A stretch of 19,777 nt of DNA from the NCBI GenBank assembly GCA_012728505.1, contig JAAYEY010000202.1, positions 1 through 19,777 of the forward strand. The letters are read 5' to 3'. Each line of letters opens with the position of its first letter. Position 1 is the stretch's first letter. The notes below the pieces were generated by a model. It searched no databases. It saw only the letters and a list, made by a program, of their open reading frames with translations, and had not been told where the DNA came from. The DNA comes from Synergistaceae bacterium. GTDB lineage: Bacteria > Synergistota > Synergistia > Synergistales > Synergistaceae. The position numbers and the translations under genes were made by a program. Shown here piece by piece: positions 16,339 through 19,777 of this stretch.

Positions 16339-16360
16339 AGAAAATATTTTTTATAAAAGC

Positions 16361-16389
16361 TTGACATTTATTCTCATGAAGGGTATATA
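16361..16389 (+). promoter_or_regulatory. Promoter of the serine operon leader
   Basis: A perfect TTGACA (16361-16366), a 17-bp spacer and TATATA (16384-16389) predict transcription from about 16396. An A/T-rich tract (about 16340-16358) directly upstream could act as an UP element. This is the only convincing promoter for the aminotransferase-serA operon. Confidence 0.82.
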
Positions 16390-16430
16390 TGTTAACCATT
16401 CAGCGGACACATTTGAAAGGAGTGCTTAAT

Positions 16431-16568
16431 TTGAGAGAATTCGTAAATATTGCTTATGCTGGCTCAATGCCTTCATCTATCTCTTCAGGCGCTTCTTCAT
16501 CATGGAGCGGCTCTGGTTGTGGTTGCCGGTCCCGGAACGTGTGCCCGATGAAAAGAAAATTTCCTTAA
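16431..16568 (+). CDS. Serine-rich leader peptide of the serine operon
   Basis: The 45-codon frame starts with TTG at 16431, 8 nt after AAAGGAG, and ends with TAA. The product has 11 serines, concentrated in residues 12-34, with a Ser-Ser-Ser run at 22-24. It also has five glycines and three cysteines, including GCGC at 29-32. Serine, glycine and cysteine are all made from the pathway encoded downstream. No signal peptide, protease site or RiPP enzyme is nearby. Its position between a strong promoter and an intrinsic terminator, with alternative RNA pairings overlapping its codons, indicates a regulatory leader peptide whose translation is sensed. An internal ATG (codon 13) has no ribosome-binding site. 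Confidence 0.75.
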   Translation: MREFVNIAYAGSMPSSISSGASSSWSGSGCGCRSRNVCPMKRKFP

Positions 16569-16627
16569 TTTTCAAAATCATCAAGTACGTTTCAGGGACC
16601 GGAAGAATATCTTCCGGTCTTTTTTTT
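16504..16627 (+). promoter_or_regulatory. Transcription attenuator (alternative 1:2, 2:3 and 3:4 stems)
   Basis: Strand 1 (GGAGCGGC, 16504-16511) can pair with strand 2 (GCCGGTCC, 16525-16532) at 7 of 8 positions. Strand 2, extended to 16526-16540, can instead pair with strand 3 (16587-16602): 15 pairs with one bulged A at 16594 and one G-U. Strand 3's CCGG and following bases form the terminator stem with strand 4. The 2:3 antiterminator and the 3:4 terminator are thus mutually exclusive. Ser codons 22-24 (16494-16502) lie just before strand 1, so a ribosome stalled there would mask strand 1, free strand 2 and favour read-through into the serine genes. The logic is inferred; the complementarities are in the sequence. 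Confidence 0.75.
16597..16627 (+). terminator. Intrinsic terminator in the serine operon leader
   Basis: GACCGGAAGA (16597-16606) pairs perfectly with TCTTCCGGTC (16610-16619) around a 3-nt loop, followed by eight T's (16620-16627). It lies 43 nt ahead of the aminotransferase start and no gene ends just upstream other than the leader peptide, so it must act conditionally for the operon to be expressed. It is the attenuator's 3:4 stem. Confidence 0.92.
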
Positions 16628-16670
16628 ATTCAAAAATTATTCTAATACACATAAGGAGGCTACAAAAGAA

Positions 16671-17816
16671 ATGAACACGAAATATCTGCTTACCCCAGGA
16701 CCGGTAGAATTGCCGGCAGAAGTGCTGAGGGCTGGTGCAAGACCATTAATAGGACACAGGTGTCCTGCTTTTTCCGAGCTCTTCACAAGTATCGAAAAGA
16801 TGCTCCAAGAACTTTTAAAGAGTGAAGGCCCCGTTATCATACTCCCCTCTTCCGGCACAGGAGCACTCGAGTGCATGGCCGTCAATTTCCTTGAAAAAGG
16901 AGATAAATTTATTTCAATATCATGCGGGGTCTTTGGTAACAGATTTCGTGAAATTGCTTTAAGGACAGGCGCTGAAGGAATCAATATCGATGTTGAGTTC
17001 GGTGAATCTGTTACACCAAAAATTGCTGCAGACGCAGTGAAAAACAACCCCGGCTGCAAAGTTCTCATGATAACTCACAACGAAACATCGACAGCTGTTG
17101 TTAATCCAATTAAAGAAATAATAGCTGCCATTCCGGAGAAAGATCGCCCGCTTATTTTTGTTGACGGAGTAAGTTCTGTTGGTGCAATGGAATGCTTCCC
17201 TCAGGAATGGGGCATTGATGTACTTGGCACAGCTTCGCAAAAGGGACTGCTTACACCTCCCGGATTGGGGCTCGTATGGCTTTCGGAAAAAGCCTGGAAG
17301 GCGCTAGACGGAAAAATATGCCCAAGTTACAGCTATGACCTTAAGCTGCACAAGAAAGAACTCGAGGCAAAATCACCTGCCAACCCCTTTACACCGCCCG
17401 TTTCACTCTACTATGCGCTTGAGGCCGCCCTCTCAGAGATTCTTGAGAGAGGTACTGATATTTGGTTTAACTCTCACAGGAAATATGCTGACGCTCTTGC
17501 CGCAGGACTTGAAGCTATGGGATTCGATCTTCTTGCAAAAAATAAAGAGGCCCGTTCTTCCGGTGTTACCGCGTTCAAATATCCGGGTGGAGATACAGAA
17601 GCAGTCCGTAAAAAATTGCGGGCTATGGGTATAGAAACAGCAGGAGGTCAGGGAAAATTAAAGGGTATTCTGATCAGAGTCGCCCATTATAACAATTGGG
17701 GATGGCCCGAACTTTGTATTATCCTTGGTTCGCTCTATGGAGCCGCAGGTATGGCTCAAACGCTTAAAAAGGACTTTCTGGCTGAAGCCTGGAATGTTTG
17801 GAACAAGGAGGACTAA
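16671..17816 (+). CDS. Class V aminotransferase, probable phosphoserine (or serine-pyruvate/alanine-glyoxylate) aminotransferase
   Basis: This 381-residue PLP enzyme belongs to the serine-pyruvate/alanine-glyoxylate branch of fold-type I, class V. Features are TPGP near the start, the phosphate-binding SSGTGALE (60-67), D165 in VDGVSS, and the PLP lysine K191 in TASQKGL. It is not the classical SerC sequence. Its place immediately before serA, overlapping as TAATG, and the serine-rich leader ahead of it suggest it transaminates 3-phosphohydroxypyruvate to phosphoserine. AGT-like enzymes next to serA are known in other bacteria lacking serC, for example Thermotoga. Serine-glyoxylate or alanine-glyoxylate activity remains possible. 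AAGGAGG lies 11 nt upstream of the ATG. Confidence 0.88.
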   Translation: MNTKYLLTPGPVELPAEVLRAGARPLIGHRCPAFSELFTSIEKMLQELLKSEGPVIILPSSGTGALECMAVNFLEKGDKFISISCGVFGNRFREIALRTGAEGINIDVEFGESVTPKIAADAVKNNPGCKVLMITHNETSTAVVNPIKEIIAAIPEKDRPLIFVDGVSSVGAMECFPQEWGIDVLGTASQKGLLTPPGLGLVWLSEKAWKALDGKICPSYSYDLKLHKKELEAKSPANPFTPPVSLYYALEAALSEILERGTDIWFNSHRKYADALAAGLEAMGFDLLAKNKEARSSGVTAFKYPGGDTEAVRKKLRAMGIETAGGQGKLKGILIRVAHYNNWGWPELCIILGSLYGAAGMAQTLKKDFLAEAWNVWNKED

Positions 17817-17821
17817 TGATA

Positions 17822-19471
17822 ATGGTTGAAAATAAAATATGGAAAGTTTTAATTGCTGAGACAGTTGGAGAGGCCGGACTTAATCTTCTAAGAGATGCTC
17901 CGGACATTGAATTAATAGAGGAAGTTGGAATATCTCGTGAAGACTTCTTAAAAAAACTGCCCGAAATGGACGCAGTTCTTACAAGAAGCGGAACAAAGAT
18001 GGATGAGGAAGCTCTGAACGCTGCAACAAAACTTAAGGTAGTTGCCCGTGCAGGTGTAGGGGTGGACAACGTCAACATTCCTGTTGCGAGTCGAAAGGGC
18101 GTAGTAGTAATAAATGCCCCAACTGGAAACACGCTGGCGGCGGCAGAGCTGACGATGGCTCTTATGTTAAGTCTTGTCAGAAAAGTCCCGCAGGCTTTTG
18201 GTTCCTTACGAAGCGGTGAGTGGGACAGGAAACGTTTCTCAGGCCACCAGCTCAGCGGGAAAAAAGTGCTTGTTATAGGTCTTGGAAGGATAGGTGTAGC
18301 TGTTGCACAGCGTTGTCGTGCTTTTGGTATGGACGTGATTGCATACGATCCTTATACATCGAAAAAGAAAGCAGAGTCTCTTGGAATACCATTTAGGACA
18401 GATCTTGCTGATGCTCTTTCTGTCGCTGATGTTGTGACCCTTCATATGCCTCTTACCGCTGATACATCGAACATGATTGATGAGAAAATGCTCAGGGCTT
18501 TTAAAAAGGGATCTTACCTTATCAACTGTGCAAGGGGCGGCATCGTTGATGAAAAAGCAGCAGCAGCGGCAGTCAGAGAGGAAAGACTTGCAGGAATAGC
18601 ATTTGACGTTTACTGTTCAGAACCTCTTGGAACAGACCATCCTTTTCTGGCTAAGGACATAGGGGACAGGATCGTTATCACTCCTCACCTTGGAGCCAGC
18701 ACTGAAGAAGCCCAGACCGAGGTAGCTATGATAGCGGCTGCGAACATGATTGCAGCTCTTCGGGGAGAACCTTATGAACATGCAGTCAACCTTCCTTTCC
18801 TTGAACAGAAACTGAATAAGACCCAAAAAGCATTCCTCCAGCTTTCCAGAAAAATGGGCATTTTGGGGGCCAAGCTTGCGGAAGCTGAGTGTGGCGCTAT
18901 TCAGGGAGCTCACATAATGCTCAGGGGGGACCTTTTTGATGAAGAAGAACCGCTACTAAACAAGCTTTCAGCATACAGCATAGGGGTCTTAAAGGGGCTT
19001 TTTGAGGTTAGCAGCGGTCCTGAAGTTTCATATATGCTCGCTCCCCTTCTGGCTAAAGACAGCGGTTTAAGCGTCGACGAAGGTTTCGGTGAACCCAAAA
19101 CATATAAAAATACAGTTGAGCTGACGCTTGATGCGGAGAAATGCAAAGTTTCACTCATGGGAACGATTACAGAAGAAGGACGTATGCGTATCGTAAAAGT
19201 AAATGGTTATTGGCTTGATTTTGTTCCCGGTGGTAAACTCATCATTTTTCAAAATCATGACAGGCCCGGAGTGATTGGAAAGATAGGAAACATCCTTGGG
19301 GAGTCGAAGGTAAACATTGCAAACTTTGCGCTGGGTCGCAAGGACAACAGCGGATTGGCCCTTGGCGCACTCGAAGTCGACAGTGACATTGATGACACTT
19401 TAAAGAAAAAACTTGAGAAAAGCGGCGATATGCTCTGGATAACACTTATAGACTTTTCCGAGGTAAAGTAG
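17822..19471 (+). CDS. serA: D-3-phosphoglycerate dehydrogenase
   Basis: SerA oxidises 3-phosphoglycerate with NAD to 3-phosphohydroxypyruvate, the committed step of serine synthesis. The NAD motif is GLGRIG (153-158), and the catalytic R-E-H set is R238 (NCARGG), E267 and H289 (TPHLGAS). After the catalytic part (about 1-310) come an intervening ASB domain (about 320-460) and a C-terminal ACT domain (about 475-549, starting near IIFQNHDRPGVIG). This is the long form that commonly shows serine feedback inhibition, so control may act at both enzyme and attenuator level. AAGGAGG lies 10 nt before this ATG; the ATG at 17816, 4 nt after that site and overlapping the aminotransferase stop, is the alternative start. 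Confidence 0.95.
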   Translation: MVENKIWKVLIAETVGEAGLNLLRDAPDIELIEEVGISREDFLKKLPEMDAVLTRSGTKMDEEALNAATKLKVVARAGVGVDNVNIPVASRKGVVVINAPTGNTLAAAELTMALMLSLVRKVPQAFGSLRSGEWDRKRFSGHQLSGKKVLVIGLGRIGVAVAQRCRAFGMDVIAYDPYTSKKKAESLGIPFRTDLADALSVADVVTLHMPLTADTSNMIDEKMLRAFKKGSYLINCARGGIVDEKAAAAAVREERLAGIAFDVYCSEPLGTDHPFLAKDIGDRIVITPHLGASTEEAQTEVAMIAAANMIAALRGEPYEHAVNLPFLEQKLNKTQKAFLQLSRKMGILGAKLAEAECGAIQGAHIMLRGDLFDEEEPLLNKLSAYSIGVLKGLFEVSSGPEVSYMLAPLLAKDSGLSVDEGFGEPKTYKNTVELTLDAEKCKVSLMGTITEEGRMRIVKVNGYWLDFVPGGKLIIFQNHDRPGVIGKIGNILGESKVNIANFALGRKDNSGLALGALEVDSDIDDTLKKKLEKSGDMLWITLIDFSEVK

Positions 19472-19472
19472 T

Positions 19473-19777
19473 TTGAGAGTTTTTGTTGTAAGGCACGGCG
19501 AGACTGACTGGAACGTTGAAGGACGATTCCAGGGACAGATGGATACGAAACTTAACGCGCGTGGAGTTAAACAGGCAGAACTCCTTGCAGAAAGGCTTAA
19601 AAATCACAAATTCGATGCTGTTCTCACAAGTCCTCTCTCAAGGGCCAGAGTGACAGCAGAAATGATAGCAGCAAAAGCCGGAATTCCCGAAGTGACAATT
19701 ATCAAAGAGCTTACCGAGATCAATCACGGTGACTGGGAAGGTTGTCTGGCAGACGAGATCTCCAGTAAATGGCCTGA
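19473..19777 (+). CDS. Histidine phosphatase family protein (phosphoglycerate mutase-like), 3' end outside window
   Basis: The reading frame starts with TTG at 19473, one base after serA ends, with GAGG about 9 nt upstream inside serA, and runs off the right edge after about 101 residues. RHGETDWN (7-14) is the phosphohistidine motif, with H8 the nucleophile. LTSPLSRARVTA and the ELTEINHGDWEG segment are the expected second and third motifs. The family includes cofactor-dependent phosphoglycerate mutases, alpha-ribazole phosphatase and metal-independent phosphoserine phosphatases such as Hydrogenobacter PspA. Position in a serine operon makes phosphoserine phosphatase the most attractive role. 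Sequence alone does not settle it. Confidence 0.85.
   Translation, partial: MRVFVVRHGETDWNVEGRFQGQMDTKLNARGVKQAELLAERLKNHKFDAVLTSPLSRARVTAEMIAAKAGIPEVTIIKELTEINHGDWEGCLADEISSKWP

Follow-up and report, generated by a model that had tools for sequence, protein, structure and literature searches.

A candidate serine-sensing leader-peptide attenuator ahead of an aminotransferase-serA operon in Synergistales

Introduction

Leader-peptide attenuation is a textbook mechanism, and leader attenuators are known for tryptophan, histidine, phenylalanine, threonine, leucine, isoleucine/valine and cysteine, with the thr and ilv leaders responding to several amino acids. Glycine and cysteine both derive from serine. 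The Synergistota are anaerobes, many of them amino-acid fermenters, from digesters, oil wells and guts.

Attenuator leaders in Rfam include those for His (RF00514), Trp (RF00513), Thr (RF00506) and Leu (RF00512) (PMC3766115). In mycobacteria and other Actinobacteria, Cys leaders carry runs of codons for one amino acid before the operon for that amino acid (PMC1262725), and the examples in M. smegmatis are leaderless (PMC9031893). In C. glutamicum, the start codon of the ilvBNC leader lies one nucleotide from the transcription start, hairpins compete, and several amino acids are sensed (PMC11857589). The serC leader of alpha-proteobacteria (RF00517) stands ahead of serC-serA genes and has two conserved stems, the last of which was proposed to hide the ribosome-binding site; the available portion of its description mentions neither a leader peptide nor a terminator (PMC1273637). 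In B. subtilis, UCN Ser codons within the regulator gene slow ribosomes during serine starvation and thereby make SinR a sensor, a mode that its authors contrast with transcriptional attenuation (PMC3862929). Other papers cover a cysS uORF (PMC8632094) and the regulation of his genes, including HisR in Synergistes (PMC9413887).

Serine is awkward for attenuation because it has six codons and several tRNAs, and because starvation affects UCN codons otherwise than AGY codons, as reported for B. subtilis (PMC3862929). No serine leader-peptide attenuator was found in the searchable open-access literature (subscription papers fall mostly outside that scope), in agreement with an earlier note on this DNA, made from the sequence alone, that knew of no such system. 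The words "serine" and "serA" are absent from the available main text, supplement aside, of a paper on the Synergistetes species Thermovirga lienii (PMC6429828) and from the available text of one on premature terminators (PMC2965389); "serine" is likewise absent from the available text on Actinobacteria (PMC1262725). Here, we describe a Ser-rich leader region in a Synergistaceae bacterium (assembly GCA_012728505.1, contig JAAYEY010000202.1) and its counterparts in related genomes. The window is the whole stretch of DNA that was analyzed, 19,777 nucleotides in length.

The Leader Region and Its Operon

Rereading of the sequence confirmed that a Ser-rich leader and a terminator stand ahead of an aminotransferase-serA operon (Table 1). 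The promoter, Shine-Dalgarno (SD) site, 45-codon frame, 11 Ser codons and Ser triplet run at 16494-16502 are as described in the earlier note, whose coordinates are correct, and so is its perfect 10-bp stem followed by T8. The Ser codons are, in order, TCA TCA TCT TCT TCA TCT TCA TCA AGC TCT TCC, and ten of the 11 are thus UCN. In dinucleotide shuffles of the upstream region, the best SD-preceded frame held 0.74 Ser on average and none of 200 shuffles reached 11; when any frame was allowed, the mean best was 4.5 and one of 200 shuffles reached 11. The promoter grades near-consensus; it was missed by a simple promoter scan because the scan requires T at the last -10 position. The same two hexamers, with 17-nt spacing, are found in seven other scored loci of the same genus and a sister genus (L002-L006, L008, L009). 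The start of the 5' UTR at 16391-16402 (GTTAACCATTCA) is identical in the window and in L002-L009, which cover the genus and the sister-genus locus L009.

Table 1. Features of the leader region and operon, with positions in the window.
Feature	Position	Strand	Description	Basis
Promoter	16361-16389	+	TTGACA 16361-16366, 17-nt spacer, TATATA 16384-16389	sequence reading
Shine-Dalgarno site	16417-16422	+	AAGGAG, 8 nt 5' of TTG start	anti-SD duplex -8.2 kcal/mol
Leader peptide frame	16431-16568	+	45 codons, TTG start (16431), TAA stop, 11 Ser codons	translation; kept in relatives
Ser cluster	16464-16514	+	10 of 11 Ser codons (codons 12, 15, 16, 18, 19, 22, 23, 24, 26, 28)	translation; close-leader alignment
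Strand 2	16526-16540	+	antiterminator 5' strand, within the leader frame's end	folding, alignment
Strand 3	16588-16602	+	antiterminator 3' strand; distal half doubles as terminator 5' arm	folding, alignment
Intrinsic terminator	16595-16627	+	perfect 10-bp stem 16597-16606/16610-16619, loop ATA, T8 16620-16627	sequence, folding, alignment
Class-V aminotransferase	16671-17816	+	AGXT/serine-pyruvate aminotransferase-like, not SerC	PF00266; role from operon
serA	17822-19471	+	D-3-phosphoglycerate dehydrogenase with ACT domain	TIGR01327, 556 bits vs cut-off 454; PF01842
Histidine-phosphatase gene start	19473-19777	+	cut by window end	PF00300

The aminotransferase matched 12 NCBIfam models, none at its cut-off, and most of the solved structures closest to it in sequence belong to serine/alanine-glyoxylate aminotransferases. 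From its place in the operon, it is probably a replacement phosphoserine aminotransferase that stands in for SerC. The histidine-phosphatase fragment matches the PspA and CobC models, both below cut-off, and is possibly a phosphoserine phosphatase. It adjoins serA in the window; in the close relative L031 (5802-7143), no frame resembling it is listed after serA among those of at least 120 aa on the same strand.

Known RNA classes were considered for the region as well. A T-box riboswitch (RF00230) was unmatched in the window and 18 related loci and was rejected. The serC leader was also rejected, as the two-hairpin model RF00517 was unmatched in the same loci and the first gene is not SerC.

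Occurrence Across Synergistota

A search of 185 Synergistota genomes for close matches to the aminotransferase (E 1e-70 or better) found 68 places in 66 genomes, of which 67 were analyzed (a contig-edge fragment, G033:C210, was left out). With L067 and L070 excluded for upstream sequence that is too short, 65 loci were testable; L031-L035 are the same places as other loci and were dropped. A Ser-rich frame (5 to 15 Ser) occupies the same position in 60 of the 65, a count that depends on choosing the frame with the most Ser in each region and that includes two borderline loci with 5 Ser each, L037 and L071, the latter without a good promoter. No Ser-rich frame was found in the other five loci (L010, L012, L025, L047 and L051); L051 was counted here because its 5-Ser frame sits in repeats and is not preceded by an SD. 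The repeats are tandem short units (ctttaggcctcttattt-like) that occupy the leader position of L051, approximately 330 nt 5' of the aminotransferase.

SerA is present in 87 of the 185 genomes, 22 of which have no close aminotransferase, and 19 of these 22 were examined (G067, G069 and G177 were left out). Among the 15 Synergistales loci that lack the aminotransferase, 11 (L116, L118-L127) have an SD-preceded Ser-rich frame directly 5' of serA, and none was found in the other four (L113, L114, L115 and L117). The leader thus appears to track serine synthesis rather than one gene, given its presence before serA where the aminotransferase is missing. In the outgroup order, no Ser-rich leader was found in the four loci examined; a more distant aminotransferase lies 5' of serA in these loci and, judged by eye, sits closely behind another gene. 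In total, 69 leaders from 30 genera were obtained. Where strong leader matches were sought in eight genomes, each genome gave one, always at the ser locus. The earlier note had itself named conservation of a Ser-rich short frame upstream of serA operons in relatives as a test, and the frame is indeed strongly conserved there. By sequence comparison, the leader is a real feature of most serA loci analyzed in the order Synergistales, with its conserved parts rightly placed.

Two loci of genus g5, L010 and L012, retain promoter-like sequence and have no Ser-rich frame. L010 also retains the terminator and, by eye, the antiterminator strands, and is matched by the covariance model described below at E 2.8e-7; perhaps these two loci are decayed attenuators. 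In a separate case, genome G172 carries two aminotransferase-serA operons (L039 and L046, on contigs C26 and C95), each with its own, differing Ser-rich leader. As this genome is listed as 4% contaminated, one of the operons may be foreign.

Serine as the Conserved Property

Because the test based on the most-Ser frame is weak (shuffle p of 0.05 or less in 36 of 65 regions without SD and in 36 of 64 with SD), the case for serine relies on a choice of frame that is blind to content and on composition averaged by genus. When the frame was chosen by SD strength alone, 49 of the 65 regions offered one and 16 did not; Ser was the top residue in 37 of the 49, and in 3 of 14 in a reverse-strand control. 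Across the 69 leaders, Ser accounts for 25% of residues in genus averages versus 14% in dinucleotide shuffles; it exceeds its shuffle in all 30 genera and is the single commonest residue in 29. The genera are related, and the p values given here and below therefore do not come from independent events. In 58 leaders, Ser makes up 24% of the leader frame versus 8% of each other frame.

The codons point in the same direction as the residues. Among eight close leaders, 10 Ser columns are common to at least six, and all 10 vary synonymously. UCN codons outnumber AGY codons by 470 to 74 in 59 leaders, versus 1248 to 371 in the downstream gene (p 2e-6, kinship ignored). For these statistics and those of SD choice, L007 was omitted as a duplicate; L007 and L030 were both omitted from the folding, duplex, geometry and composition statistics. 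Across genera, Ser content, its position and the pairing strand persist, and the peptide sequence diverges.

The 2:3 and 3:4 Pairings

Pairing 2:3, the antiterminator, and pairing 3:4, the terminator, are mutually exclusive. In the window, the terminator segment folds with -18.8 kcal/mol (z -4.68), its stem being extendable by G-U pairing, and the antiterminator segment (16515-16606) folds with -34.7 kcal/mol (z -4.46); in either case, none of 200 shuffles was as good. A 1:2 pairing was sought by folding positions 16396-16548, and no excess stability was found (z -0.63, 45 of 200 shuffles as good). Thus, two of the three mutually exclusive pairings proposed in the earlier note are present in the window, and the third, 1:2, is weak there.

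Comparison among relatives supports the same two pairings. A manual alignment of 14 loci from the window's wider clade, which skips a bulged base present in eight of them, gives an antiterminator of 14 pairs, 10 of which form in all 14 loci. Two columns are compensatory (C-G in seven and U-A in seven; G-C in eight and A-U in six). At the first, strand 4 co-varies such that the terminator is kept: among the seven C-G loci, six carry C there and one carries U (G-U), and the seven U-A loci all carry U. In a program-made alignment, 91% of cells pair for the 2:3 core (8 bp), a level reached by none of 500 shuffles and with slid versions at 55% at most; for the 9-bp core of 3:4, the figures are 98%, 47 of 500 and 72%. 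Double-sided changes amount to one pair in the 2:3 core (reached by 290 of 500 shuffles) and one in the 3:4 core (434 of 500), and the covariation seen in these alignments reflects few evolutionary events. The earlier note had named covarying stems as a test; with that limit, 2:3 and 3:4 bear it out, and the partner position required for 1:2 is not conserved.

Over a broader set of 57 loci, the duplex between the leader end and the terminator arm beats its shuffle mean in 55, and at most five of 100 shuffles reach it in 28 (approximately 3 expected); for the pairing probability of strand 3, only 13 loci taken singly do better than their shuffles. Swapping of terminator arms between loci was tried as a null and replaced by shuffles, since motifs common to related loci left it with little power (the rank fraction had a median of 0.23, and 7 of 57 loci ranked in the top 5%). 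When a covariance model of the switch was built from the 14 window-clade loci and run on 52 family genomes, it matched the ser locus in 17, which are the 14 loci or their duplicates by construction together with two new genomes, G029 and G031. Each of the 17 has one strong match, at the ser locus, and elsewhere the model gave only four matches (E 0.0016 to 0.0099). In most relatives, a terminator lies between the leader and the first gene; hairpins were placed by hand in ten relatives, the U tract is weak or displaced in L027, L028, L066, L068 and L072, and L020 was left out of folding. In promoter scoring (maximum 12 plus small bonuses; no shuffle control), 54 of 57 loci reached 8 or more.

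Ribosome Position and Geometry

Between the end of the Ser cluster and strand 2, the median distance is 26 nt (quartiles 23-35); from the end of strand 2 to the stop codon, it is 12 nt. Of the 1576 codons at which a stalled ribosome would not occupy strand 2, 467 encode Ser, versus 63 of the 605 at which it would cover or have passed that strand (p 4e-23, kinship ignored). In folding restricted to the RNA transcribed before strand 4, the pairing of strand 3 is 0.67 when the ribosome sits on the Ser cluster versus 0.35 when it sits at the stop, and the former value is higher in 53 of 57 loci. The value at the stop counts strand 2 as hidden, also in the window and in L002-L005, where the stop lies 26 nt beyond the 14-nt strand 2 (32-33 nt by another measure), so that strand 2 would lie uncovered upstream of a ribosome that paused at that point. 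By that other measure, strand 2 would be within reach of a ribosome at the stop in 35 of 57 loci and out of reach in 22. With the ribosome at codons 3-8, the median for strand 3 is 0.70, and the cluster value is higher in 26 of 57 loci; since strand 3 is equally free to pair in that position, specificity would have to come from the codons alone.

Full equilibrium folding with the ribosome at each codon was also tried as a stand-alone model and was rejected, as it reproduced no switch: the terminator prevails nearly everywhere, and 6 of 57 loci cross 0.5 between the cluster and the stop. Because the terminator wins at equilibrium, the switch must be kinetic and depend on the order of transcription.

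Proposed Mechanism and Alternatives

The leader region is very probably a ribosome-mediated transcription attenuator that senses serine through charged tRNA-Ser, acting as a choice between 2:3 and 3:4. This was the main reading of the earlier note, and it gains support from the comparative test, in both the conservation of the Ser frame and the 2:3 and 3:4 pairings. The locus combines a translatable frame, codons for the product amino acid, an intrinsic terminator, a ribosome-dependent antiterminator and suitable codon placement. The parts, their conservation and spacing, and the exclusion between 2:3 and 3:4 are as described above; from them we infer coupling, stalling, and the direction and size of the response. 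Transcription from the promoter would be coupled to translation of the leader with its 45 codons. If Ser-tRNA were plentiful, the ribosome would pass the Ser cluster, reach strand 2 and block 2:3; strand 3 would then pair with strand 4, and the terminator would end transcription before the aminotransferase and serA. When Ser-tRNA is short, the ribosome would halt on the Ser cluster and leave strand 2 free as strand 3 emerges, such that the 2:3 antiterminator could form before strand 4 is made and the polymerase could read through. The best reading of the data is this three-strand switch, in which the non-stalled ribosome itself clears strand 2, as it explains them with fewer parts. Folding suggests that such a switch gives untranslated RNA little built-in protection.

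A trp-type attenuator with four strands, in which a stalled ribosome masks strand 1 and 1:2 otherwise protects the terminator, with termination on untranslated leaders too, is unlikely. Strand 2 has upstream partners in each of the 14 loci studied, with mean pairing probabilities from 0.50 to 0.92; in L002, L006 and L009, the partner is codons 23-28, which a ribosome at the end of the Ser cluster could cover. In addition, strand 3 is slightly freer in untranslated leaders than with the ribosome on the cluster (median 0.65 versus 0.67; lower in 37 of 57 loci, p 0.0009). However, this difference is small, the position of the partner differs between loci, and the window segment folds no better than its shuffles; a conserved protective 1:2 hairpin of the trp type was not found in the 14 loci and the window, the pairing being weak and without a fixed place. 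On these grounds, the masking of a protective strand 1, as put forward in the earlier note, is not upheld, and the three-strand switch is preferred. What the switch reads could be broader than serine itself: glycine and cysteine are made from serine, and the leader may therefore gauge the serine family as a whole, in the manner of the thr and ilv leaders, a possibility that we regard as doubtful. Gly and Cys do exceed their dinucleotide shuffles in 28 (p 5e-7) and 25 (p 6e-6) of 30 genera; of the remaining residues in the 69 leaders, none but Met is in significant excess, and that excess is weak (19 of 30 genera, p 0.009). Conversely, the GGN and UGY codons may be retained for RNA pairing, Cys is absent from 8 of 58 leaders, and the runs are runs of Ser (at least three in 39 of 58 leaders).

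Two further readings would dispense with codon sensing altogether. The frame might encode a functional Ser-rich small peptide that happens to precede an ordinary terminator, and dN/dS in the eight close leaders (0.60 over the entire frame, 0.42 within the Ser cluster) suggests selection at the peptide level. We consider this highly improbable, as it is not the peptide sequence that persists across genera, and the leader sits before serine genes with strand 2 built into the 3' end of its frame. Alternatively, a riboswitch that binds a ligand, such as a T-box or an RNA of the serC type, might operate here with the Ser codons incidental, and a structured leader with a terminator ahead of an amino-acid operon would fit such an element. 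Yet the 5' portion of the RNA differs from genus to genus and the Ser codons persist, and no Rfam family was matched at its gathering score in the window or 18 related loci; even at a lax threshold, positions 16340-16680 gave six weak matches, all below cut-off (His_leader 22.3 bits versus 49). An RNA of this kind is thus extremely improbable, and the serine attenuator remains the favored explanation.

Comparison with Known Systems

The leader of one genus may be translated in an unusual way. In genus g16, a near-consensus -10 box lies 6-9 nt before the leader ATG, without a good SD, in 8 of 11 loci scored (L019, L022, L036, L037, L040, L041, L045 and L050), and L038 and L044 also fit this short distance at later in-frame ATGs (by eye). 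The distance is at least 25 nt in 42 of 54 loci with a promoter-like match, which was scored without a shuffle control. Genus g16 thus probably starts its leader peptide on a leaderless mRNA. The full picture of a Synergistales attenuator family that senses the serine family, works with three strands, also precedes serA alone and has one leaderless genus is put forward tentatively, with less confidence than the serine attenuator itself.

The His, Trp, Thr and Leu leaders (PMC3766115) are alike in their promoter, SD site, frame rich in codons for the product, antiterminator opposed to a terminator, and biosynthetic operon. The present leaders differ in their amino acid, serine, and in their lineage, Synergistota; they also have no conserved 1:2 hairpin and match no Rfam leader model at threshold. 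The Cys leaders resemble them in their runs of codons for one amino acid and, in M. smegmatis (PMC9031893), in the lack of a leader on the mRNA that genus g16 also seems to share; however, they read Cys rather than Ser, and no conserved terminator hairpins were reported ahead of the mycobacterial cys operons (PMC1262725), whereas most loci here have a terminator. The probably leaderless start in g16 also comes close to that of C. glutamicum ilvL, though the ilvBNC system responds to branched-chain amino acids and follows a three-hairpin model with an anti-antiterminator (PMC11857589). The serC leader (PMC1273637) shares the position ahead of serine genes, and its model finds no match here. The SinR sensor (PMC3862929) shares the use of UCN codons, which are favored over AGY in the present leaders, and differs in that its codons lie within a regulator gene and involve no leader RNA switch. 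A conserved serine attenuator would make the choice of regulatory codons directly testable; the leader would also add Synergistota to the lineages that use attenuation and is a candidate regulator of serine synthesis in this group. Taken together, these comparisons suggest a mechanism that is known in kind, with a serine specificity and a lineage that appear to be new as far as the open literature searched shows.
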